From: Methylocystis rosea SV97 | GTDB lineage: Bacteria > Pseudomonadota > Alphaproteobacteria > Rhizobiales > Beijerinckiaceae | Direction of reading: 5' to 3' | Length of the DNA stretch: 64,000 bases | Assembly (NCBI RefSeq): GCF_000372845.1 | Contig: NZ_KB889963.1 | Span: forward strand, 1,112,146-1,176,145 | Shown: positions 20,584 through 34,857 of the stretch, piece by piece | Layout of the letters: every line of letters begins with the position of its first letter | How positions within the stretch are numbered: the stretch's first letter is position 1 | Translations under genes and position numbers: made by a program | Notes under the pieces: generated by a model | What the model was told of the DNA's origin: nothing | Database searches by the model: none | Seen by the model: only the letters and a program-made list of their open reading frames with translations

Positions 20584-20733
20584 TAAGCAATCTCCGTCGC
20601 AGGGAATTTCACTTTTAAGCTTATCACGGCCGCTTCGCCGGTCCACATCCTATATCTTTTCAAGACATTCAAATTGAAAGGAGCGGCAACGCGCCGAATA
20701 ATGACCCCTTTCGAAAGTCAGCAATGGTCGGGT

Positions 20734-22452
20734 TCATGATGGGGATCTCGCATGGAGCTGTATCTCGCGGTCGTAGAAGCGCTTGTCAACATTGCGGCGC
20801 GCGGCGTGGATGATGGTCGAGCCTGGCGCTTCCTCGCAGAGCAGCTCCATCAGCCGCATCTGACTGAGGTCGTCGAGCGCTGAGGTGGGCTCGTCCATGA
20901 TGATGATGTCTGGCGGCCTCAGCAGCGTGCGCGCGAAGCCGAGCTGTTGCTGTTCGCCGTCGGATAGCACATCGGACCAGCTCTGCTCCTCGTCCAGGCG
21001 CGGTACGAGATGAGCCAAGCCGCAGGCGACGAGGATTCTTGCCGCGCGCGCGGGGTCGGGCGGCGTGTCGCCACGTGGATAGTCGAGCGCCTCGCGCAGC
21101 GTGCCTCGCGGCATATACGGCTGCTGCGGCATGAAAGCGATGCGCGCATCCTTCGGACGCAGAATGCGGCCGCTTCCCCACGGCCACAACCCCGCCATGG
21201 CGCGGATCAGCGTGCTCTTGCCGGCGCCAGGATCTCCCTTCACGAGAACCTTCTCGCCGCGTCCGATCGTCGCATCGGTGTCCGCGAGCATCAACGCGCC
21301 GTCATGCTGGGCGATGGAAAGCCCGCAAAGATGCAATGCGTCGTCGTCGCTGAAGGCGAGATCAATCGTCTTCTCCTCGGCTCCGATCGCGAGCTCGTCG
21401 AGGTCATCGAAGAAGAGGTCAAGGGCGGCGACGCGCCGAGCCGAGGCAAACCAGTCCGCGAGGCGCAGCGAATTGTCGGCGAGCCAATTGAGCGCCAATT
21501 GCACCTGTATGAAGGCGGCGGCCGCCTGCATGAGATCGCCGAGCGACATTTCGCCGGCGAGATATTTCGGCGCGCCCAGCATGAGCGGTATGGCGGGCGC
21601 GAGCACGTTATTGCCGCTCGACAGGAAGAGCATGCGCGCCTGTCGTCCAATCACCGCAACCCAGCGCAGCGCAACCTGACTGAATCTCGCATAATGCCGC
21701 TCCCGCTCGGCGTCGTCGCCGCCGATAAGCGCGATTGTTTCGGCGTTTTCGCGAGTGTGCGAAAGTTCAAAACGAAAGTCGGCCTCTGCGGCCGCCTTCG
21801 CCTCGACGCGCGCGACGAGTGGGCGACCCAAAAGAAGCATGCCGAAGGACGTCGCGGCGGAATAGCTGACGACCGCGATCACAAGATAGCCCGGGATCGT
21901 CACGCCCCCAATCGTCAGCGAGCCGCCGATGAACCACAGCACGCTGACGAACGAGACCGCCATGAGCAGAGCATTCGTGACGCCCGTCGCAAAGTCGACG
22001 AAGAGCTCGATAGCGATCCGCCCGTCCTCGGCAATGCGCGCTTCCGGATTGTCGACGAGCCGAAGGACGCTGAGCTGATAAAAGCGGCGGCGCTCCATCC
22101 AGCGCCGCACGAGCGTCTGAGTCAGCCATTCCCGCCAGCGCAACTGAAAACGCATGCGCATCTGCAGCAGCGCGACGCTTGTCAACGCAGAGGCGAAGGC
22201 CAGCGCCAGCATCAGGCCGATGCTGAGAAAGATCAGCCGCTGGTCCTTATTCTGCAGGGCGTCGAAGAAAAACTTGTTCCATCGGTTGACCGCGATGGCC
22301 GGGACGAGATTGAGCAGCAGGCAGGCAAAGAGCCCTGCCACGAACAGTTTCGCTTTGCGGCGCGTCGGGCCGGTCCAGAAGCCAAAGGAGAGGTTCGTAA
22401 AGTGGCGCAGGAGCCGCGCATCGACCGCGGTTGGAACAATGCCGTTATTCAT
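20734..22452 (-). CDS. SbmA/BacA-like ABC transporter, fused permease and ATPase
   Basis: The 572-residue protein has an SbmA/BacA-type membrane domain (RWNKFFFDALQNKD, RWREWLTQTLVRRW, NPEARIAEDGRI) and a C-terminal ATP-binding domain: Walker A GDPGAGKSTLIRA, Q-loop FMPQQPYMP, signature LSDGEQQQLGFART, Walker B IIIMDEPTSALDD. This is the YddA/ABCD group related to peptide and very-long-chain fatty acid transporters. In alphaproteobacteria relatives affect envelope lipids and uptake of peptides; the substrate here is unknown. It probably works as a homodimer in the inner membrane. Confidence 0.88.
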   Translation of the reverse strand: MNNGIVPTAVDARLLRHFTNLSFGFWTGPTRRKAKLFVAGLFACLLLNLVPAIAVNRWNKFFFDALQNKDQRLIFLSIGLMLALAFASALTSVALLQMRMRFQLRWREWLTQTLVRRWMERRRFYQLSVLRLVDNPEARIAEDGRIAIELFVDFATGVTNALLMAVSFVSVLWFIGGSLTIGGVTIPGYLVIAVVSYSAATSFGMLLLGRPLVARVEAKAAAEADFRFELSHTRENAETIALIGGDDAERERHYARFSQVALRWVAVIGRQARMLFLSSGNNVLAPAIPLMLGAPKYLAGEMSLGDLMQAAAAFIQVQLALNWLADNSLRLADWFASARRVAALDLFFDDLDELAIGAEEKTIDLAFSDDDALHLCGLSIAQHDGALMLADTDATIGRGEKVLVKGDPGAGKSTLIRAMAGLWPWGSGRILRPKDARIAFMPQQPYMPRGTLREALDYPRGDTPPDPARAARILVACGLAHLVPRLDEEQSWSDVLSDGEQQQLGFARTLLRPPDIIIMDEPTSALDDLSQMRLMELLCEEAPGSTIIHAARRNVDKRFYDREIQLHARSPS

Positions 22453-22678
22453 ATTCGTTCTTAAAGCTCAACTTGGGATGACCGGCAAGGCGGCATAGAT
22501 GGCCCTGCATCTTGGCGCGATCGGCGCCCTCATGTGAGACTATCGCTGTCTGGCTGCGAACTCTTATGTGATCGTCTTTCTCATGTCATTTTGATGGACG
22601 CCGTCTGGCTCCGCGTGAAGCAAGGCCGAGAGGCAGACTAGCGACGTTCGCCTACAACGATCGCAGATAGGACCGTGA

Positions 22679-25441
22679 GTGACCTGGGACGCGAACGAAA
22701 CTCCCTACTGGAGCCATGATGCTTCCGACCTGGCCGCAGCTTTGGAGTCGGGTCCAGACGGGCTGTCGTCCGATCGCGCCGCTGCGCGGCTCTTAAGCGT
22801 CGGTCCCAACAGCGTCGAGGATGCGCCGCGCCTGAGCGCGCTTCGCCTCCTTCTGCGTCAGTTCCAAAGCCCGCTCGTCCTCATCCTGGCGTTCGCCGCC
22901 GCAATCTCGCTGGCGCTTCAGCAATGGGTGGACGCCGCCATCATCCTGGCGATCGTCCTGGGCAGTTCGCTCCTCAGCTTCTTTCAGGAATATCGGGCGT
23001 CCACCGCGGTCGAGGAACTGAAGAAGCGCCTGGCGCTGACGTGCCGCGTGGTGCGGGATGGGGTGGAGCAGACAGCGCCGGTCAGCGCGATCGTGCCCGG
23101 CGACCACATCCTTCTCTCGGCGGGCAATCTAATCCCAGCTGATGGGCTCGTGATCGAGGCGCAGGATTTCCTCGTCAGCGAGGCGAGCATGACCGGCGAG
23201 TCGTTTCCGGTCGAGAAGCGGGCCGGGATAGTTCGCCCCGACGCGCCAATCACTGAACGGACCAATGCCGTCTTTCTCGGCGCTTCGGTGCGCAGCGGCA
23301 CGGCGAAGGTCCTTGCCGTGAGCACCGGCCGCCGGACCGAGTTCGGCGCTATTGCGGCGCGGCTGGGGGCGCGCCAACCCGAGACCGACTTCGCCCGCGG
23401 CGTGCGGCAGTTCGGTTATCTCCTCGTTCGCGTGATGATTGTCATCGTTCTCTTCGTGCTGACTGTGAACTTGTTGCTCCACCGCCCGGTGATCGAGTCC
23501 CTGCTGTTCGCCGTGGCGCTCGCGGTCGGTCTGTCGCCTGAGCTCTTGCCGGCGATCATCAGCGTGACCCTTTCGGCCGGCGCGCGGGCCATGAGCAAGC
23601 GCGGCGTCATCGTCCGCCGGCTCGACGCCATCGAGAACCTCGGCAGCATGGATATCCTATGCACCGACAAGACGGGCACATTGACCGAAGGCGCCATTGT
23701 TCTGCGCGACGTTCTCGACGCCGGAAGCCAGCCTTCGGATGAGGTGCGACGGCTCGCCTTTCTCAACGCCGCCTTCGAGACCGGCATCGAAAACCCGCTC
23801 GATGAAGCGATCGTGACTGCGGGCAAGGACATTGGGCTAACGACCCGTGGCGCCGCCAAGATCGACGAAATCCCCTACGACTTCATGCGTCGCCGACTCA
23901 CCATCGTCGTGGCGGAGGATGGAGCGCCGTCACAGCGCCTGTTCATCACCAAGGGGGCGTTTTCGAACGTGCTCGACATATGCACATCCTTGGACCGCGA
24001 TGGCGTCGAGGTTCCGGCGAACGCCGAGCGGCGCGCGGAACTCGAGAATGTCTTCAAGGCCAAGAGCGCTGAAGGCTTCCGTGTTCTGGCCGTTGCAACC
24101 CGCAAGGTTCCAGTGAAGGCGGACTACGACCGCGACGACGAACGGGAGATGACCTTTCGTGGCTTCCTTGTCTTTTACGACCCGCCCAAGGCGGACGCGC
24201 GGCGCACGATCGACGATCTCAATCGGCTAGGCATCCGCATCAAGGTGATCAGCGGCGACAACCGCTATGTGACGGCGCATCTGGCGAAGGCTGTGGGACT
24301 CGATGCAACGTCGATGCTCACGGGCGAAAAGCTCGTAAAACTCAAGGACGAGGCTTTGTGGCATCTCGCGCCACGGACAGACCTCTTTGTCGAGATCGAT
24401 CCCCAGCAGAAGGAGCGGATCGTCCGCGCCCTGCAGCGGATGGGTCACTCGGTCGGATATCTCGGCGACGGCGTCAATGATGCGCCGGCCCTGCATGCGG
24501 CCGATGTTGGCATCTCGGTCGAGACGGCGGTGGACGTCGCCCGCGAAAGCGCCGACATCATCCTGCTCGACCGCGACCTGGACGTGTTGCGCTCTGGTGT
24601 GGAGGATGGTCGGCGGACCTTCGCCAACACGCTAAAATACATCTCGATCACCACCAGCGCGAATTTCGGGAACATGGTCAGCATGGCGCTGGCGGCGCCG
24701 CTGCTGCCGTTCCTGCCGCTCGCCGCCAAGCAGATTCTGCTGAATAACTTCCTCTCCGACGTGCCGTCGATCGCGATATCCAGCGACAATGTCGACGCAG
24801 ACCGGGTCTCACATCCGCAGCGCTGGAGCATCAGCGAGATCCAGAAGTTCATGATTGTCTTCGGCCTGATCAGTTCGGCCTTTGATATGTTGACCTTCGC
24901 GGTGCTGCTCCTGGTTTTCCACGCCGGCGAGGCGACGTTCCAGACCGCATGGTTTATGATTTCGCTGCTGACCGAACTCGCGGTCGTCCTCGTCCTGCGA
25001 ACCCATAAGCCGGCTTTTCGAAGCAGCCCGAGTCAGTTGCTGTTGTGGTCAACGCTTGCGGTAGCGGCCGCGACCTTCGCCATCCCCTTCCTCGGGGCGC
25101 TGAGTTCGGTGTTCGGCTTCGTGCCGCTCTCGGCGATGGAGATAAGCGCCGTCGTCGCTATCGTCCTCGGCTATATCGTGGCGACGGAAGTGGGCAAGAT
25201 ATGGTTTTTCAGGTCCATCAATACTGCAGGTCTTTCGAAGCCGATCAGAGCTCGAAAGACCAAGGCGTCTGAGCCCAGACCGCATCCTCTTGGGCCTTTC
25301 ATAAGCGCGCTCGTCGCTACGGCGTTGGTCGTGGCGGGAGCCCTCGTCTTAACGGGAACGCTCATCTTGATCGGAACGCTTGTCCAACTGGGCCTTCAGC
25401 CGCATGAAGCGTTAAAGCCGGTCTTCTGGCCAAGCAAATAA
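22679..25441 (+). CDS. mgtA: Magnesium-transporting P-type ATPase
   Basis: The 920-residue protein is an MgtA/MgtB-type P3B ATPase that imports Mg2+. It has the actuator motif MTGES, the phosphorylation site CTDKTGTLTEGAIV, the hinge YLGDGVNDAPALHAADVG, and the family-specific end of the catalytic region KQILLNNFLSDVPSIAI. Ten membrane helices are arranged as usual, and a hydrophobic extension closes the C terminus. The start is GTG at 22679 with AGGA six bases upstream. No leader resembling the enterobacterial mgtA riboswitch is visible in the 226 bases upstream. A second Mg2+ carrier, mgtE, is at 54.3 kb. Confidence 0.92.
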   Translation: MTWDANETPYWSHDASDLAAALESGPDGLSSDRAAARLLSVGPNSVEDAPRLSALRLLLRQFQSPLVLILAFAAAISLALQQWVDAAIILAIVLGSSLLSFFQEYRASTAVEELKKRLALTCRVVRDGVEQTAPVSAIVPGDHILLSAGNLIPADGLVIEAQDFLVSEASMTGESFPVEKRAGIVRPDAPITERTNAVFLGASVRSGTAKVLAVSTGRRTEFGAIAARLGARQPETDFARGVRQFGYLLVRVMIVIVLFVLTVNLLLHRPVIESLLFAVALAVGLSPELLPAIISVTLSAGARAMSKRGVIVRRLDAIENLGSMDILCTDKTGTLTEGAIVLRDVLDAGSQPSDEVRRLAFLNAAFETGIENPLDEAIVTAGKDIGLTTRGAAKIDEIPYDFMRRRLTIVVAEDGAPSQRLFITKGAFSNVLDICTSLDRDGVEVPANAERRAELENVFKAKSAEGFRVLAVATRKVPVKADYDRDDEREMTFRGFLVFYDPPKADARRTIDDLNRLGIRIKVISGDNRYVTAHLAKAVGLDATSMLTGEKLVKLKDEALWHLAPRTDLFVEIDPQQKERIVRALQRMGHSVGYLGDGVNDAPALHAADVGISVETAVDVARESADIILLDRDLDVLRSGVEDGRRTFANTLKYISITTSANFGNMVSMALAAPLLPFLPLAAKQILLNNFLSDVPSIAISSDNVDADRVSHPQRWSISEIQKFMIVFGLISSAFDMLTFAVLLLVFHAGEATFQTAWFMISLLTELAVVLVLRTHKPAFRSSPSQLLLWSTLAVAAATFAIPFLGALSSVFGFVPLSAMEISAVVAIVLGYIVATEVGKIWFFRSINTAGLSKPIRARKTKASEPRPHPLGPFISALVATALVVAGALVLTGTLILIGTLVQLGLQPHEALKPVFWPSK

Positions 25442-25530
25442 CGTAGGTCGACCGGAAAGCGCCCGCCACCATCGCCATATTTGCGGCGACGCAATCGCTC
25501 GGCTGCCTCTAACCTTCAGAAAAAGACGCC

Positions 25531-26100
25531 ATGAGTAGCTTATCGTCTCAAATACGCGCTCCGGCACTTACGGAACGTTTCGCTCGCTTGTTGCGCACAC
25601 TCATCGTCGGCGTGGCGCTCGTCGTTGGCGCCGCCGCCTTGCCGTCGGTCAGCGCCGCTCGGGATATGGTGGCCTTTTCGTCATCCGTCGAGCCGGGCAC
25701 GATTGTCATCGACGCGCGCCGCCGCAAACTTTTTTTCGTTGAGGATGAAGGCGTCGCAATTCGCTATCCGATCGCCGTGCCCAAGAGCAGCGAGGAATGG
25801 TCCGGCTCCGCCACGATTATCGGTAAATACGTCAATCCCGACTGGGCTCCGCCATGGATTGTAAAACGCGACCATCCGGAATTGCCGGACCTCATTCGCG
25901 GCGGTGCGCCGAACAATCCCATGGGCGCTCGCGCTCTTACCCTCAGCCGCTTCCAGGTGGCGATTCACGGGACGACCAAAAGGATGCGCGCGTCGATCGG
26001 CTCCGCCGTCTCCTACGGCTGCATCCGCATGTTGAATGAGGATGTGATTGATCTGTTCGATCGCGTAAGCGTCGGTACGCCTGTTATCATGAGGCCATGA
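25531..26100 (+). CDS. L,D-transpeptidase (YkuD domain)
   Basis: The 189-residue periplasmic enzyme forms or remodels 3-3 peptidoglycan cross-links or protein anchors. After an N-terminal hydrophobic export segment (LLRTLIVGVALVVGAAALPS) the YkuD domain starts at GTIVIDARRRKLFFVEDEG. The catalytic motif is complete: His in VAIHGTTK, and SYGCIRMLNEDVIDLFDRV with the nucleophilic Cys. It is followed 284 bases later by the PAS/HisKA_2 kinase on the same strand. The pair is repeated in decayed form at 12.6 kb and in another version at 61.6 kb. Confidence 0.92.
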   Translation: MSSLSSQIRAPALTERFARLLRTLIVGVALVVGAAALPSVSAARDMVAFSSSVEPGTIVIDARRRKLFFVEDEGVAIRYPIAVPKSSEEWSGSATIIGKYVNPDWAPPWIVKRDHPELPDLIRGGAPNNPMGARALTLSRFQVAIHGTTKRMRASIGSAVSYGCIRMLNEDVIDLFDRVSVGTPVIMRP

Positions 26101-28660: not shown

Positions 28661-29221
28661 ATGCAGTGGCGCAATTCTCTGGGAGGCTACGGCGCAGCCG
28701 TCCAAATCGTTCATTGGTTTTCCGTGCTTCTTGTTGGCGTCGCATGGGTGCTCGGGACCGTGGGTGAAGATCTGCCACGTGGGAGAGCCCGCGATCTCGG
28801 GGAATTAATCCATGTTTCTGCGGGAGAGCTGATCGCCATCCTTTTGATCTTTCGTGTCGGCTGGCGTCTAATCAACGCGCCGCCGTCTCCAGAACCGACG
28901 CCGCTGGGGAGATCGGGCGATTTGGCCGCCAAAATCGTCCACCTTGCGCTTTACGCGCTGCTTGCGGCGGTTGTCGCCGTTGGCGTCGCGACGCAATTTG
29001 CGGATGGCGACGCGCTTTCCGTGCTTGGCATTTTCGATATCGCATCGCCGTGGACGAAGAACAAACCGTTTGCACACGACATGAAGGAAATTCATGAAAC
29101 TCTAGCGAATGGACTTATCATCCTCGCCACGATCCATGCTGGAGCAGCGTTGGTCCACCACTTCGTTTTCCGCGATCGCACTCTGAGACGTATGCTGCCA
29201 GGGGTTTCGGAGCCCCGCTAA
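28661..29221 (+). CDS. Cytochrome b561 family protein
   Basis: The 186-residue inner-membrane protein is a bacterial cytochrome b561: four hydrophobic helices with heme-ligand His candidates in VQIVHWFSVLLVGVAW, ELIHVSAGELIAILLIFRVG, VHLALYALLAAVVAVGV and KEIHETLANGLIILATIHAG-AALVHH. These proteins pass electrons from quinol or reduce superoxide in the membrane. The ATG at 28661 has GAGG seven bases upstream; a GTG four codons earlier is less likely. No partner gene is adjacent. Confidence 0.88.
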   Translation: MQWRNSLGGYGAAVQIVHWFSVLLVGVAWVLGTVGEDLPRGRARDLGELIHVSAGELIAILLIFRVGWRLINAPPSPEPTPLGRSGDLAAKIVHLALYALLAAVVAVGVATQFADGDALSVLGIFDIASPWTKNKPFAHDMKEIHETLANGLIILATIHAGAALVHHFVFRDRTLRRMLPGVSEPR

Positions 29222-29395
29222 TCCTGCGCTCGCTGCTCTAAAGTGACGCTGTGATAGCTTCGGCTTCGTTGCGGCCTTTCGGCGACCCGAGCGCGAATGC
29301 ACTGCGGGCAATCCACCCGCTGAACATGGCGTTTCAAGGGGAATTCCATCCAGGAAGTTCCTTAGCCCTTCGGGATTTTCGTTTACTTGATGCTG

Positions 29396-29581
29396 CTATA
29401 GAAATGAAGGAGACCCAAGTAGCGGAAGCACCCGGGCTATGATCGCTCCCAAACAGACTAGCACCACTAGCAGCTTGAGTAGCTGTGCTAGCCGCGCATC
29501 GGGACAGAATTTATCGATCACCCAAAACAAGATCGCCCCAAGGACGACGATAATAAGGATTCCAATTATGAGCGTTAGCAC
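29396..29581 (-). CDS. Small two-helix membrane protein, 61 residues
   Basis: The peptide MLTLIIGILIIVVLGAILFW is followed by a short loop (VIDKFCPDARLAQ) and a second helix LLKLLVVLVCLGAIIARVLP. It resembles the protein at 13205-13456 in size and helix arrangement, possibly the same family of small membrane proteins. The start is GTG at 29581 with GGGAG six bases before it. Confidence 0.65.
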   Translation of the reverse strand: MLTLIIGILIIVVLGAILFWVIDKFCPDARLAQLLKLLVVLVCLGAIIARVLPLLGSPSFL

Positions 29582-30059
29582 CGCAGTCTCCCGGTAAATT
29601 TACGGCAATGTCCAAAACTCATTGCATTTTCGTCGATATTTGGTGACGCGCGCTTGGGTCAGCCCTCGGCTCTCGCCTAATGAAGAGCTTTCCTCAAACC
29701 TGTTTCAAAATTTCGCATTTGCGTTGAGTTTTGGCAACAGGAATTCGTGAGGCACCGATGCGCTTCGGCAAAAGGGCTCAACTCGAAAGATCGGACGCGC
29801 TCACCACTTCGTTCCGTTCGACTTAGCAGAATGGATATGCCAAACGCTTGATCTGTCCGGCGCGAGTGCGCTGGTCATTTAATTGCGTTCAACGCGCGGA
29901 TCGCCTTGCGAAAAGCGCCGCTTATTATAACGAGGCGTGACGCATCGGAGACGTGGTCCCTCATCCAATCCTTGGCAGGCCACTTTGTCGGTTCGCACGA
30001 ATCTAGATCGCGGAAGCGACACCTCCTCCCACCCCCACTGACGTGGATACGCGTCGAGG

Positions 30060-30165
30060 CATTGGACACATCCCATCGTCGCACGGTCTCGTAGGAAACC
30101 GCGACGCCCCGTTCAGCAACAGATCTTCCACGTCGCGCAAGCTCAGGGCACAGCTGAGTTTGGTC
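30060..30165 (-). pseudogene. Remnant of an IS6-family (IS26-like) transposase
   Basis: On the minus strand the text CALSLRDVEDLL is followed, after a frameshift, by GVAVSYETVRRWD. Together these are the well-known start of IS6-family DDE transposases (LSLRDVEELL...GVxVSYETVRRW). The match is lost soon after, so only the N-terminal part remains. Confidence 0.65.
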
Positions 30166-30304
30166 ATCTTGGCCGATACGAGCGGGACGTCAGCAACGGT
30201 AAGCGCCTAATGTGACAATGCGCCAGAGACTCGCCCCGACCAAGGTGATTTCTCGAGACGCCCTGGATAGTGCGAAAAACGCCTATGATCAGGCGCAGGT
30301 TGGA

Positions 30305-30436
30305 CTGAACGAGGCCACGATCGACTCTGCAGTAAGTCCCCTCGGTCACGCCGATCGCGCGAACAGCGTCCGCGACTTGTCGTTGTGAGGTCGATACATC
30401 CGCCTGTCGCAACTTGGCGACGATTCTCGGGCTTGT
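30305..30436 (-). pseudogene. Remnant of an IS3-family OrfA transposase
   Basis: The minus-strand frame reads IVAKLRQADVSTSQRQVADA, VRAIGVTEGTYCRVDRGL. This matches the helix-turn-helix start of IS3-family OrfA (KLRxADVxxSQGxxVADAxRxIGVTExTYYRW). The remainder of OrfA and all of OrfB are missing. Confidence 0.7.
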
Positions 30437-30532
30437 GACGCCTGCTCGGCATTGCGATCATCGTCCCGTCGCAGTCGGCTAACGCATGGCGGGTTTTAAA
30501 ATGCGGGTCAGCGAACGCTCGGGAGGGTTTTA

Positions 30533-33500
30533 GTGCCAGATGCTTCCTCAGCCCTCCACTCGGCTCCCGGCCTCAGTGAAGCAAACGCGCAGGCCAGGCT
30601 GAAGAGCGAGGGGTACAACGAGCTGCCGCGGCCGCAACGGCGCACGCCGTTGCGAATCGTTCTCGAGGTCCTGCGCGAGCCGATGCTCGCGCTGCTCATC
30701 GGCGGCGGCCTGATCTACTTGCTGCTGGGGGATTTGAAGGAAGCATTGATTCTCCTCGTCTTCGCAACGATGTCGGTCGTCATCACGGCGGTGCAAGAGA
30801 CCCGCACCGAGCGCGTCCTCGAAGCGCTGCGCGATCTTACGAGTCCGCGCGCGCTGGTTATTCGTGACGGCGTACGTAAGAGAATCGCTGGGCGCGAAGT
30901 CGTGCGTGGCGATGTCGTCGTGCTCAGCGAAGGCGACCGGGTTCCCGCCGACGCGGCGCTCAGCGAATGCCAGGACCTACAGATCGACGAATCGCTGTTG
31001 ACGGGAGAGTCGGCGCCCGTTCGCAAGATCTCTCGCGCCGATGCGCCTCTCGGAAGCCGCCGACCGGGGGGCGACGACCTGCCATATGTGTTTTCCGGCT
31101 CGCTGGTGGTGCGCGGAGCCGGAATCGGCGAGGTGATCGCGACCGGCGCACTTAGCGAAATCGGCAAAATTGGCCAATCGCTCAGCACGCTCGAAACTGA
31201 GCCGCCGCGTCTGCTGGCGCAGACACGGCGTCTTGTGGGGGTGTTTGCTCTCGCGGGAGGCGCCGTAAGCGTGTTGGCGGTGTTGCTCTACGGCCTGTTG
31301 CGCGGAGGATGGCTCGATGCGGTGCTCGCGGGCATCGCGCTCGGCATGTCGATGCTGCCCGAAGAGTTTCCCGTCGTGCTCACCGTATTCATGGCGATGG
31401 GGGCATGGCGGATTTCGCGGGCGCGCGTATTGACCCGTCGCGCCGCGGCCATCGAATCTCTGGGTTCGGCGACGGTCTTGTGCACTGATAAGACCGGCAC
31501 CCTGACCGAGAACCAGATGTCGATTGCCGAACTACGCCTCAAGGGCGGCGAGGCATTACGAGCCGGCCAGATATCCCGCTCAATGCCTGCAAGCTTCGAT
31601 CATCTGGTCCAGTTCGGAATTCTCGCCAGCGCGCCTGATCCATTCGATCCGATGGAAAAAGCGTTTCACGATTTCGGCCGGATCCATTTGCCCAAGACCG
31701 GAACTCTGCTTGGTCCAGATTGGAAACTTTTGCAGACCTACGGTCTTCGTTCCGATCTCCTTGCGATGTCACAGGTCTGGCAAAGCGACGCCACGCCGGA
31801 ATTCGTTGTCGCGGCCAAAGGCGCGCCGGAAGCCATCGCTACCCTCTGCCGATTGAACGAGACGGAGTTTGCTGCAGTGAAGCGGTCCGTTGAGGGCATG
31901 GCTGCCGAGGGACAGCGCGTTCTGGGAGTGGCCAGCGCATCCTTCGCGCAGAAAGCATTGCCGGACTCCCAGCGAGACTTCACGTTCGAATTTTTGGGGC
32001 TCGTCGGACTCGCCGACCCGTTACGCTCGGCCGTTCCAGCCGCCGTGAGCGAGTGTCGGTCGGCAGGCATCAGGGTGATCATGATCACGGGCGACTACCC
32101 AGCGACGGCGAAGGCCATCGCTCGCCAGGCGGGTCTAAATACCGACGAAGTCGTGACAGGACAGACACTCGAAAGCGAGAGCGAGCCACAGCTCGCGCAG
32201 CGCATGCGGACAGCGAACATATTTGCGCGAATCCTGCCTGATCAGAAGCTCCGAATTGTGAATGCGCTCAAAGCAAACGGCGAGATCGTCGCCATGACGG
32301 GAGACGGCGTGAATGACGCCCCCTCTCTCAAGGCCGCGCACATTGGCATTGCCATGGGCGGACGCGGAACGGACGTGGCGCGGGAGGCCTCCTCAATCGT
32401 CCTTCTCGATGACGATTTCGGTTCGATCGTCAAGGCGATCCGGCTTGGCCGCAGAATCTACGACAATCTGCGAAAGGCGACAGGTTTCATCTTCGCGGTG
32501 CATGTGCCCATCGCGGGATTGGCGATATTGCCGCTGTTGTTTGGCCTGCCGCTGCTATTTGGGCCGATGCACATCGCATTTCTGGAAATGGTGATCGATC
32601 CGGTCTGTTCGCTCGTCTTCGAAGCCGAGATCGAGGAAGACGATGTGATGCGCCGCCCGCCACGTCCCACTGACGAGCCTCTATTCTCCGGTCCCGTGAT
32701 CGCGTGGGGCCTTCTACAAGGAGCGTTCGCATTCGCGCTTGTCGCCGGCATTTTCCTCATCGCGCTGAAGCGGGGCATGCCAGAGACGGAAGTGCGCGCG
32801 TTAACTTTCTTCTCATTGGTCCTCGCGATCGTCGGCCTAATCTTTGTCAACCGCACCTTCAGCGCATCGCTGCTAACAGCGCTACGTCGACCAAACACGG
32901 CGCTTGCGTGGGTACTCCTTGCCGTCGTGGCGATGCTGACTCTGACGCTCCTTTCGCCCCCCATTAGCGCTCTCTTCCGCTTCGGGCCCCTACACCTGGA
33001 CGACCTGTCAGTCACGCTCGGCGCCGGCGTGATCGTGTTGGTGCTGCTTGAAGCGCTCAAATACGTTTGGCGCGGCGCAGGACTTAACGGAGTTCGTTGG
33101 CTCCGTCGGATATTCGTACAAGGTCGCGTGAACGTGAGGGCCTGTGTCGGATGGACGGCAGCCGCGGCGATGGCGATTTCATTTGGCTGGCTTCTTATCG
33201 CTTATGCGCCAAAGCTCATCACGCCGCGAGAGACTGGGTCGTCTCGAGTAGAGAGGATTGAAGCCCCGCCCGCGCAACAAGGCGCTCCCACTCCGTCCAA
33301 GGAAACGAAATCCGCCGTGGAGGAAGCCCAGCCAAGCGGCCGAGAACAGGAGATCAGCACGAGAACGGCGGCTGGCGGGTCTCCTAAACTTTTAAGCAGG
33401 AAGCTGCCCAGCGGTCTCATACTAAATGTTCCGAGCTCCGGCATGGAGGCAAATCTGCTCGCGTTTCTCGAGCGTGAAGCGAAGATAGAAGGAGTGACCT

Positions 33501-33838
33501 GGTTCGACTTCGACCGCCTCCAATTCGAGACGGGCAAAGCAAAACCGCAAGCCGCATTTCAGGATCAGTTAAAAAACATCGCAGACATCCTGGCGGCCTA
33601 TCCGAACGTCATATCCGTGATTGGCGGTTATACGGACAGCGTCGGCGCCCGGAGCGCAAATAAGAGATTGTCAAAAGCGCGCGCAGACTCGGTGATGCGC
33701 GAGTTGACGAGAATGGGCGTGGACGCTTCACGCCTCAACACGAAAGGTTATGGCGAAAGCCATCCGGTCGCAACCAATGACACTGAGGAGGGACGGACAA
33801 AAAATCGACGAATCTCGCTAGGCGTAACTCGAAAGTAG
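30533..33838 (+). CDS. P-type cation ATPase fused to a C-terminal OmpA-like peptidoglycan-binding domain
   Basis: The first 870 or so of 1101 residues form a P-type ATPase of the P2-like group: actuator LLTGES, helix-4 motif MSMLPEEFPVVLTVF, phosphorylation site CTDKTGTLTENQMS, hinge MTGDGVNDAPSLKAAHIGIA and the usual ten helices. The transported cation is unknown. An extra hydrophobic helix (872-896, TAAAAMAISFGWLLIAYAPK) is followed by a Pro/Glu/Ser-rich linker (897-956), a short segment KLPSGLILNVPSSG, and an OmpA domain (988-1101) with GGYTDSVGARSANKRLSKAR and GYGESHPVATN...NRRISL. The extra helix would put the OmpA domain in the periplasm. The GTG start at 30533 follows GGAGGG. I know no standard family with this architecture. 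Confidence 0.9.
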   Translation: MPDASSALHSAPGLSEANAQARLKSEGYNELPRPQRRTPLRIVLEVLREPMLALLIGGGLIYLLLGDLKEALILLVFATMSVVITAVQETRTERVLEALRDLTSPRALVIRDGVRKRIAGREVVRGDVVVLSEGDRVPADAALSECQDLQIDESLLTGESAPVRKISRADAPLGSRRPGGDDLPYVFSGSLVVRGAGIGEVIATGALSEIGKIGQSLSTLETEPPRLLAQTRRLVGVFALAGGAVSVLAVLLYGLLRGGWLDAVLAGIALGMSMLPEEFPVVLTVFMAMGAWRISRARVLTRRAAAIESLGSATVLCTDKTGTLTENQMSIAELRLKGGEALRAGQISRSMPASFDHLVQFGILASAPDPFDPMEKAFHDFGRIHLPKTGTLLGPDWKLLQTYGLRSDLLAMSQVWQSDATPEFVVAAKGAPEAIATLCRLNETEFAAVKRSVEGMAAEGQRVLGVASASFAQKALPDSQRDFTFEFLGLVGLADPLRSAVPAAVSECRSAGIRVIMITGDYPATAKAIARQAGLNTDEVVTGQTLESESEPQLAQRMRTANIFARILPDQKLRIVNALKANGEIVAMTGDGVNDAPSLKAAHIGIAMGGRGTDVAREASSIVLLDDDFGSIVKAIRLGRRIYDNLRKATGFIFAVHVPIAGLAILPLLFGLPLLFGPMHIAFLEMVIDPVCSLVFEAEIEEDDVMRRPPRPTDEPLFSGPVIAWGLLQGAFAFALVAGIFLIALKRGMPETEVRALTFFSLVLAIVGLIFVNRTFSASLLTALRRPNTALAWVLLAVVAMLTLTLLSPPISALFRFGPLHLDDLSVTLGAGVIVLVLLEALKYVWRGAGLNGVRWLRRIFVQGRVNVRACVGWTAAAAMAISFGWLLIAYAPKLITPRETGSSRVERIEAPPAQQGAPTPSKETKSAVEEAQPSGREQEISTRTAAGGSPKLLSRKLPSGLILNVPSSGMEANLLAFLEREAKIEGVTWFDFDRLQFETGKAKPQAAFQDQLKNIADILAAYPNVISVIGGYTDSVGARSANKRLSKARADSVMRELTRMGVDASRLNTKGYGESHPVATNDTEEGRTKNRRISLGVTRK

Positions 33839-34857
33839 CGAATGCTAAGAAAAGTGGTTTCAGCAAGTTTGAGGGCTATGGTGCAAATTCAAACGAACGG
33901 TCGCAAAAGCCGCGTTTGGGCGTTCGACGGGGGTCAAGCCGCAATGACCGTGTTCCAAAATCTCTAGCGCGGTTTTGCCCGTCACTGGAAGCTTGTTCGA
34001 TGCGAATTGACTTTTTTGATGCGATGCACGGATACCACCAAATTAACAGCTGCGGGGTATGGTGAAGCTACACCTGTTTTCGGCTTGTACATGCTGCGCG
34101 TAGCTCAACGACGGCCGCCGGACCGTGATGATCTTGGCGAACCCTCGAACCGGTAGGAGACGCGAACCTTCCCGGAAGGATGTGTCATGCAGTAGCTGGC
34201 CACTTCTGGAAAGAGCCGGGCCATTTCCAACTTCGTCGTCATAGAAAGCTTCATCATGAGCGCACATGCGATGACGGAGTTAATCATTTGTCCTCTCTGC
34301 GCATCCGAGCGCACGCTCGGCCTCCTTGGTCGAGCGGCGGAAGGAAGCCATGACGATGACGTTCATGAACCCTATAAGCCCAAGCTCTGTGAGAAATCCG
34401 GGCTAAGTCAAGTCCAATCGACGACCCACTCAATTTTCTGGGAGCGATCTCCAATCATTCGTTGATGCGGAAGCTCATGATCCGAGACGCAGCCGGACGG
34501 GCTCGGCCCACTCCTCGTCTTAGCTGCTCTTGCGTTCCCCGCACAGCGGGGGCGAGCTGACCAAGCCCGGGTGAACGGGAGCCAGTTTAACGCGCTTCAC
34601 ATTTCCGCCTTGAACGGCGCCGAGGCAGGCGCCATTGTCATTAACGTAACGGCGCAAAATCGAGCAGCCGGGCATTGCGCCCGCGGAGGGAGCTGGCGTC
34701 CTCCCCGTCACAATTCTCAACATTTATGGTTCAGGCACTCGACCTTGCAGGAGTGCGGGTGGTGCAGACGGGTCGCAGCGCATATCTAGCCGCAATGCGC
34801 TCTGGCGCGCGCACTTCTATGATTTTTTGATCTAGGGTGATCAATTTGGCGCCATCA
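33839..34857. other. Gene-poor stretch of about 1 kb
   Basis: Only short overlapping frames occur, none with known motifs. A single hairpin GTTCCCCGCAC-AGCGGGGGC at about 34533 looks like a type I-E CRISPR repeat but is not repeated. Given the decayed fds copy next door, this is probably eroded DNA. Confidence 0.5.

Follow-up and report, generated by a model that had tools for sequence, protein, structure and literature searches.

A P2-type cation ATPase of Methylocystis rosea ends in a putative wall-anchor module shared with unrelated membrane proteins

The stretch of Methylocystis rosea SV97 DNA analyzed here (64,000 nt; hereafter the window) contains a gene in which a P-type ATPase continues in frame into an OmpA-like domain. 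The gene, at 30533-33838 on the plus strand, is a single uninterrupted frame of 1101 amino acids (aa) with a GTG start at 30533 and a stop codon at 33836-33838. Above their cut-offs, Pfam matched Cation_ATPase_N (residues 10-61), E1-E2_ATPase (102-296), Hydrolase (316-603) and Cation_ATPase_C (673-845), and the OmpA family PF00691 followed at residues 998-1092 with 65.6 bits against a cut-off of 27.2. The catalytic motifs were located at residues 157 (TGES), 276 (PEEFP), 319 (DKTGT), 429 (KGAPE), 519 (TGD) and 590 (GDGVND). An AlphaFold2 model built from 41 alignment rows, with a mean predicted local distance difference test score (pLDDT) of 70 and a predicted template modelling score of 0.61, was read as the ten helices of a P2 ATPase, a helix at 870-895, an unstructured segment at 896-951 and an OmpA fold. 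Pfam, the motifs and the model thus bear out the original prediction for this locus, that a complete P-type ATPase is followed in frame by an extra helix, a linker and an OmpA domain, and the fusion architecture is confirmed to be real (Table 1).

Table 1. Features of the fusion gene in the window
Feature	Position	Strand	Evidence
Complete fusion gene, 1101 aa plus stop	30533..33838	+	Intact frame, Pfam, copies in other genomes
P2-type ATPase part, residues 1-845	30533..33067	+	Pfam PF00690, PF00122, PF00702, PF00689
Asp319 of DKTGT	31487..31489	+	Motif position
Arg-rich stretch, residues 846-869, taken as cytoplasmic	33068..33139	+	Past the end point of plain relatives
Eleventh membrane helix, residues 870-895, hydropathy peak 871-889	33140..33217	+	Hydropathy, AlphaFold2 (low confidence)
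Pro/Glu/Ser/Thr-rich linker, residues 896-951 (56 residues), predicted disordered	33218..33385	+	AlphaFold2
Conserved lead-in of the module, residues 952-997	33386..33523	+	Alignment; 247 modules
OmpA domain, residues 998-1092	33524..33808	+	PF00691, 5.4e-18
Asp1035, equivalent of the diaminopimelate-binding Asp of A. baumannii OmpA	33635..33637	+	Alignment to 3td3; conservation
Arg1050, counterpart of the diaminopimelate-binding Arg, with the spacing of 15 conserved	33680..33682	+	Alignment to 3td3; conservation

The same genome harbors a second copy with the whole tail (C1:3455790-3459092, 97% identical), and orthologues with the whole tail, 96-97% identical, were found in G004, G015, G016 and G018 among the matches listed. 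Methylocystis silviterrae FS (L073), Methylocystis sp. L43 (L074) and the Methylocystaceae metagenome-assembled genome X3 (L075) are among the carriers, and the gene is present in 5 of the 39 genomes of the genus, the own one included (4 of the 38 others). None of the six copies contains a stop or frameshift between residues 870 and 990, a break that by the original prediction would have refuted the fusion; with six intact copies from five genomes, an assembly or frameshift artefact was dismissed. The pooled ratio of nonsynonymous to synonymous substitution rates (dN/dS), calculated from six sequences in 15 non-independent pairs, was 0.134 for the ATPase, 0.70 for the helix segment, 0.68 for the linker (896-955) and 0.31 for the OmpA part. 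The ATPase and the OmpA part are both under purifying selection, and the helix and linker are loosely constrained.

The ATPase part belongs to the P-type superfamily: DKTGT, TGES and GDGVND are present, and TIGR01494 scored 269.8 bits against a cut-off of 62.3. Asp319 of DKTGT is presumably the phosphorylated Asp of P-type ATPases. The nearest solved chain is the Listeria Ca-ATPase lmo0841 (9euq, E 1.2e-111). At the M4, M5 and M6 positions that we take to hold the ion-site residues, Glu277 and Asp689 are conserved between the two proteins, and two Asn of lmo0841 are replaced by His657 (M5) and Glu685 (M6). The label of a PMR1- or SERCA-type Ca2+ ATPase was set aside, as TIGR01522 scored 423 and TIGR01116 358.2 against equivalog cut-offs of 798.3 and 703.4, respectively. 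Among the best 120 of 8000 relatives, 119 are ATPases with a length of 849-881 aa and no OmpA family, and the chains of three plain relatives examined at the C-terminus end shortly after the tenth transmembrane helix (TM10); the one left, P0001 (97% identical, 32 member sequences), has the tail. Plain bacterial P2-type ATPases, two of them listed as Bradyrhizobium, share residues 1 to about 850 with the fusion (the nearest is 80% identical among the matches listed) but have no tail.

Relatives of the tail were gathered with residues 850-1101 (120 of 332) and with its homologue from an MFS fusion (120 of 637). The same module also ends P1B heavy-metal ATPases, FeoB, MFS and EamA proteins, an ICMT/PEMT-like protein, the membrane protein P0241, which has no Pfam match, and membrane pyrophosphatases of Bacteroidota. 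The MFS, EamA, ICMT-like and most Cu-type P1B fusions are database proteins from metagenome contigs, and their host may not be Methylocystis. Within genomes of the genus, the module is found on P2 ATPases (the own genome, G004, G015, G016, G018 and G023), P1B ATPases (G015, G026 and G028), FeoB (G020), a lipoprotein-like DUF6692 protein (G028) and a single-helix protein (G017). The well-supported branches in a tree of 50 modules need at least four label changes for P1B, two for P2 and two for FeoB; these counts are rough, bootstrap being unsettled, and either gain or loss may underlie a change. The nearest neighbors of the window module beyond its own P2 clade are the MFS and P0241 modules. 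The M. hirsuta P2 fusions branch in another part of the tree and their ATPase is only 35-37% identical to that of the window, for which two separate joinings of the module to P2 ATPases would be the simplest reading. In addition, a tail-less EamA gene (L155:5255-6340) shares 71% identity with one that has the tail. These sequence comparisons suggest that the tail is a mobile module, swappable between unrelated transporters. Since the module is common to many transporters, a portable anchor, and not one odd pump, would be the point.

A profile of the module gave matches of >100 bits in 11 of the 39 genus genomes, and in nine of the 39 the match lies in an open frame of ≥700 aa. At E ≤ 1e-28, 22 of 398 Pseudomonadota genomes matched, with a frame of >500 aa only in the own genome; besides it, G009 is the only member of the genus among the genomes listed. 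Outside the own genome, the matches of >140 bits listed for 347 genomes of the order are confined to frames of 495 and 482 aa. Two further carriers were observed. P0296 (513 aa) consists of PAS and LuxR-type HTH domains, a helix and then the same OmpA module, and is possibly a wall-anchored, membrane-bound transcription regulator. The 705-aa frame L157:9937-12054 (G023:C4) combines the OmpA tail with no more than the second half of a P2 ATPase and is perhaps a broken copy.

On which side of the membrane the OmpA domain lies was approached by comparing the partners. P-type ATPases, MFS, EamA and FeoB proteins were taken to end in the cytoplasm and membrane pyrophosphatases outside, and a cytoplasmic end was assumed for the ICMT-like partner. 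Among the partners assigned a cytoplasmic end, 32 of 32 examined have a hydrophobic helix ahead of the module; these 32 were hand-picked from 247 module proteins with near-copies included (the window protein and P0001) and others omitted (P0131, P0247, L155 and L160). In all 102 pyrophosphatase fusions no helix is added, and the helix that most closely precedes the module is the final one of the pyrophosphatase itself. Another 113 proteins, mostly of the DUF937 type, fall in neither class, and likewise P0241, P0249, L161-L163 and L165. L161, which has a lipobox-like signal as read by eye, carries the module with no helix besides the signal sequence. Lys and Arg residues are more numerous before the helix than after it in 25 of the 32 fusions and equal in two (P0122 and P0238), and the totals over all 32 are 165 versus 91. 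We infer that the OmpA domain lies outside, in the periplasm, which would explain the helix in partners ending in the cytoplasm, its absence from the pyrophosphatase fusions and the lack of an added helix in L161. That the extra helix carries the OmpA domain to the periplasm, as originally predicted, is thus supported by the presence of a helix where the partner's end requires one and its absence where it does not.

The OmpA domain has YiaD, A. baumannii Omp38 (3td3), OprF and PomB as relatives in the PDB, and MotB chains also match. Asp271 and Arg286 of A. baumannii OmpA are described as binding diaminopimelate (PMC5974059). By alignment-column count, this Asp/Arg pair is conserved in 244 of the 247 modules collected by similarity; the three exceptions are P0249, whose end departs from the module, the cut protein P0250 and the degenerate copy L163. 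The strongest individual case is a FeoA-FeoB protein of M. hirsuta (L158:9696-12977, G023:C3), which is 70% identical to the FeoB-OmpA protein P0129 through the helix and linker and then continues into LysM (PF01476, 23.0 bits against a cut-off of 20.9). OmpA and LysM are unrelated folds that both bind peptidoglycan, and we know of no other role common to them. The conserved pair and the LysM swap lend support to the earlier suggestion that the OmpA domain could bind diaminopimelate in the wall. The results contain nothing that speaks to wall-distance sensing, which the original prediction had also raised.

We consider it likely that the gene encodes a P2-type cation ATPase with a portable wall-anchor module joined behind TM10, by which the pump is tethered to peptidoglycan and held in the wall-facing membrane. 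Two P1B-OmpA genes that adjoin kinase and RND efflux genes also speak for this reading. The architecture and its conservation, the sharing of the module among partners, the conserved ligand residues and the agreement of the helix with the partner's end are observed; from them, a periplasmic location, wall binding and a benefit to the cell would follow as below. The module's own helix would take the chain across to the periplasm, the flexible 56-residue linker would bridge some of the distance to the wall, and the OmpA domain would bind diaminopimelate in peptidoglycan, as MotB and Pal do through their OmpA-like domains. The pump would thereby be kept in the wall-facing cytoplasmic membrane. 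As the benefit, we prefer that metal and cation transporters would stay beside trans-envelope pumps and away from intracytoplasmic membranes. In Methylococcus capsulatus, these are described both as continuous with the cytoplasmic membrane and as arising by its invagination (PMC9445010). Because such membranes are continuous with the cytoplasmic membrane and presumably hold no wall, a wall tie would keep the pump out of them. The intracytoplasmic membranes of Methylocystis have a like origin.

Several points weigh against this proposal. The pLDDT is below 50 across residues 850-951, the stretch containing the extra helix, so that the main grounds for helix 870-895 are its hydropathy and the similar helices seen in other fusions. 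The charge bias is reversed in five of the 32 fusions (P0121, P0125, P0135, P0246 and L164), and the end locations of the FeoB, EamA, MFS, ICMT-like and pyrophosphatase chains were assumed. The helix and linker are under weak constraint (dN/dS 0.70 and 0.68). The conservation of the Asp/Arg pair is a favored figure, not an unbiased one, near-copies being included in the 247 modules. The LysM swap is a single case: among the matches listed from the 39 genomes, LysM occurs once in a frame of >620 aa (G023:C3:110722). Frames of ≥700 aa that include the module occur in only nine of the 39 genus genomes, which shows that the anchor is dispensable and the tie optional. Finally, the localization benefit is a conjecture.

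Tails of another type were found on other P-type ATPases. A 1213-aa protein encoded in the own genome (L181:1164-4805; G000:C1:2231663-2235304) is composed of a P-type ATPase, an added helix and an HlyD/CusB-type domain (HlyD_D23, 7.8e-16). HlyD families were detected in five of the seven tailed ATPases scanned, and the tails of L186 and L187 gave no HlyD family at 1e-3. An ATPase and an HlyD adaptor share one frame in at least 24 of the 39 genus genomes, a lower bound counted by hand from equal frame lengths. In named plasmids, nothing matched the L181 HlyD tail at 1e-25. Of 121 genomes of the order, 14 had a match to it at 1e-15; the 13 others hold no large HlyD fusion, as the matching frames are of 360-742 aa and 27-31% identical. 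An HlyD remnant just upstream of the window gene was also considered and rejected, since seven HlyD-type tails used as tblastn queries had no hit in 29200-30600 at 1e-3. From these sequences, the addition of a periplasmic tail to P-type ATPases appears to be a habit of the genus, and the ATPase-HlyD fusion suggests a P-type pump coupled to outer-membrane export. A broader scheme is offered tentatively: in Methylocystis, combinatorial periplasmic tails, set behind an added helix at the C-terminal end of cation transporters, might fix the place and the coupling of each pump, with OmpA or LysM directing to the wall and HlyD-type domains to outer-membrane export, and the wall tie might be a sorting signal away from the methane-oxidizing intracytoplasmic membranes.

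The HlyD-type tails borne by related ATPases of the genus instead of the OmpA module also fit a different role, in which the periplasmic OmpA domain pairs subunits or docks on an envelope protein such as an RND adaptor, and wall binding is secondary or absent. P1B-OmpA genes do adjoin HlyD/CusB- and AcrB/CusA-type genes. On the M. rosea BRCS1 plasmid NZ_CP044329.1, the P1B-OmpA protein, annotated as a heavy metal translocating P-type ATPase, is encoded next to genes for an ATP-binding protein, a response regulator, PepSY, an RND adaptor, CusA/CzcA and TolC proteins and nikR, and kinase, HlyD and AcrB-type genes adjoin the P1B-OmpA locus in L155. No kinase-plus-RND-efflux setting of that kind was found among the ten scanned neighbors of the window gene. 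However, the ligand Asp and Arg are conserved in all but three modules, and the LysM that replaces OmpA has wall binding in common with it; docking is therefore unlikely. The tail might also be a nearly neutral decoration that spreads by recombination on metal islands or plasmids and leaves the pump unaffected. The faster evolution of the OmpA part than of the ATPase (0.31 versus 0.13), the many tail-less relatives, including the EamA protein mentioned above, and the degenerate or divergent tails L163 and L164 agree with this, but the frame is intact in six copies with purifying selection on the OmpA part, and the module occurs on many partner families with a topology that fits a periplasmic end, making neutrality improbable. 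A cytoplasmic OmpA domain or an artefactual fusion, to which the low-confidence helix and the opposite charge bias of five fusions could point, is scarcely credible given the intact copies in five genomes, the 102 pyrophosphatases without an added helix and the lipoprotein-like carrier.

Upstream of the window gene are genes for a YkuD L,D-transpeptidase, a histidine kinase and cytochrome b561, and downstream are those for a 2Fe-2S protein and metabolic enzymes. The YkuD gene, of a peptidoglycan-linking enzyme family, is located at 25531-26100, 4.4 kb upstream of the fusion gene, and another P-type ATPase is encoded at 22679-25441. Two stretches of the window have a second chromosomal copy: 20683-25859 (99.5%, L153), which holds the other P-type ATPase and part of the YkuD gene, and 30330-34212 (96.9%, L154). 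About 105 bases just downstream of the fusion gene (33994-34100) are absent from the four other genomes compared (L167-L170) but are included in the unbroken alignment with the second copy in the own genome (L154).

How bacteria place particular transporters in a continuous membrane is largely an open question, and a covalent, portable wall anchor on primary pumps would be a clean and testable case of it. Such an anchor may explain how proteins are separated between continuous cytoplasmic and intracytoplasmic membranes, and the module could serve as a ready-made tag for pinning membrane proteins. The original prediction knew of no described family with the P-type ATPase-OmpA layout; a literature search of limited coverage likewise returned no report of such a fusion, of a module exchanged between transporters or of a LysM replacement.

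Membrane pyrophosphatases with a C-terminal OmpA-like domain, from Paucibacter and others, have nevertheless been published, with a role described as yet to be elucidated (PMC11210485). They resemble the fusion in joining a primary ion pump to a C-terminal OmpA-like domain, and the tails of the Bacteroidota pyrophosphatases are 43-57% identical to that of the window over the matched part, among the matches listed, but they have no added helix. The DUF937-helix-OmpA proteins, from Acidobacteriota where named, make up most of the relatives listed for the tail of the MFS fusion, and their module is close to that of the transporters. They share the helix, the lead-in and the OmpA module with the fusion (over the module, L078 and L080 show 54-55% identity to the window protein), whereas a DUF937 domain takes the place of the transporter. 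The MotB/PomB stator is likewise an inner-membrane ion-conducting machine with a C-terminal OmpA-like peptidoglycan anchor that follows a helix and a linker. MotB has one helix and is a subunit that accompanies MotA, whereas the anchor here is fused to a complete P-type pump, and the protein was not assigned to the stator B subunits because an ATPase with membrane and catalytic Pfam domains precedes the module. By analogy, the fusion may nonetheless work like a stator B subunit.

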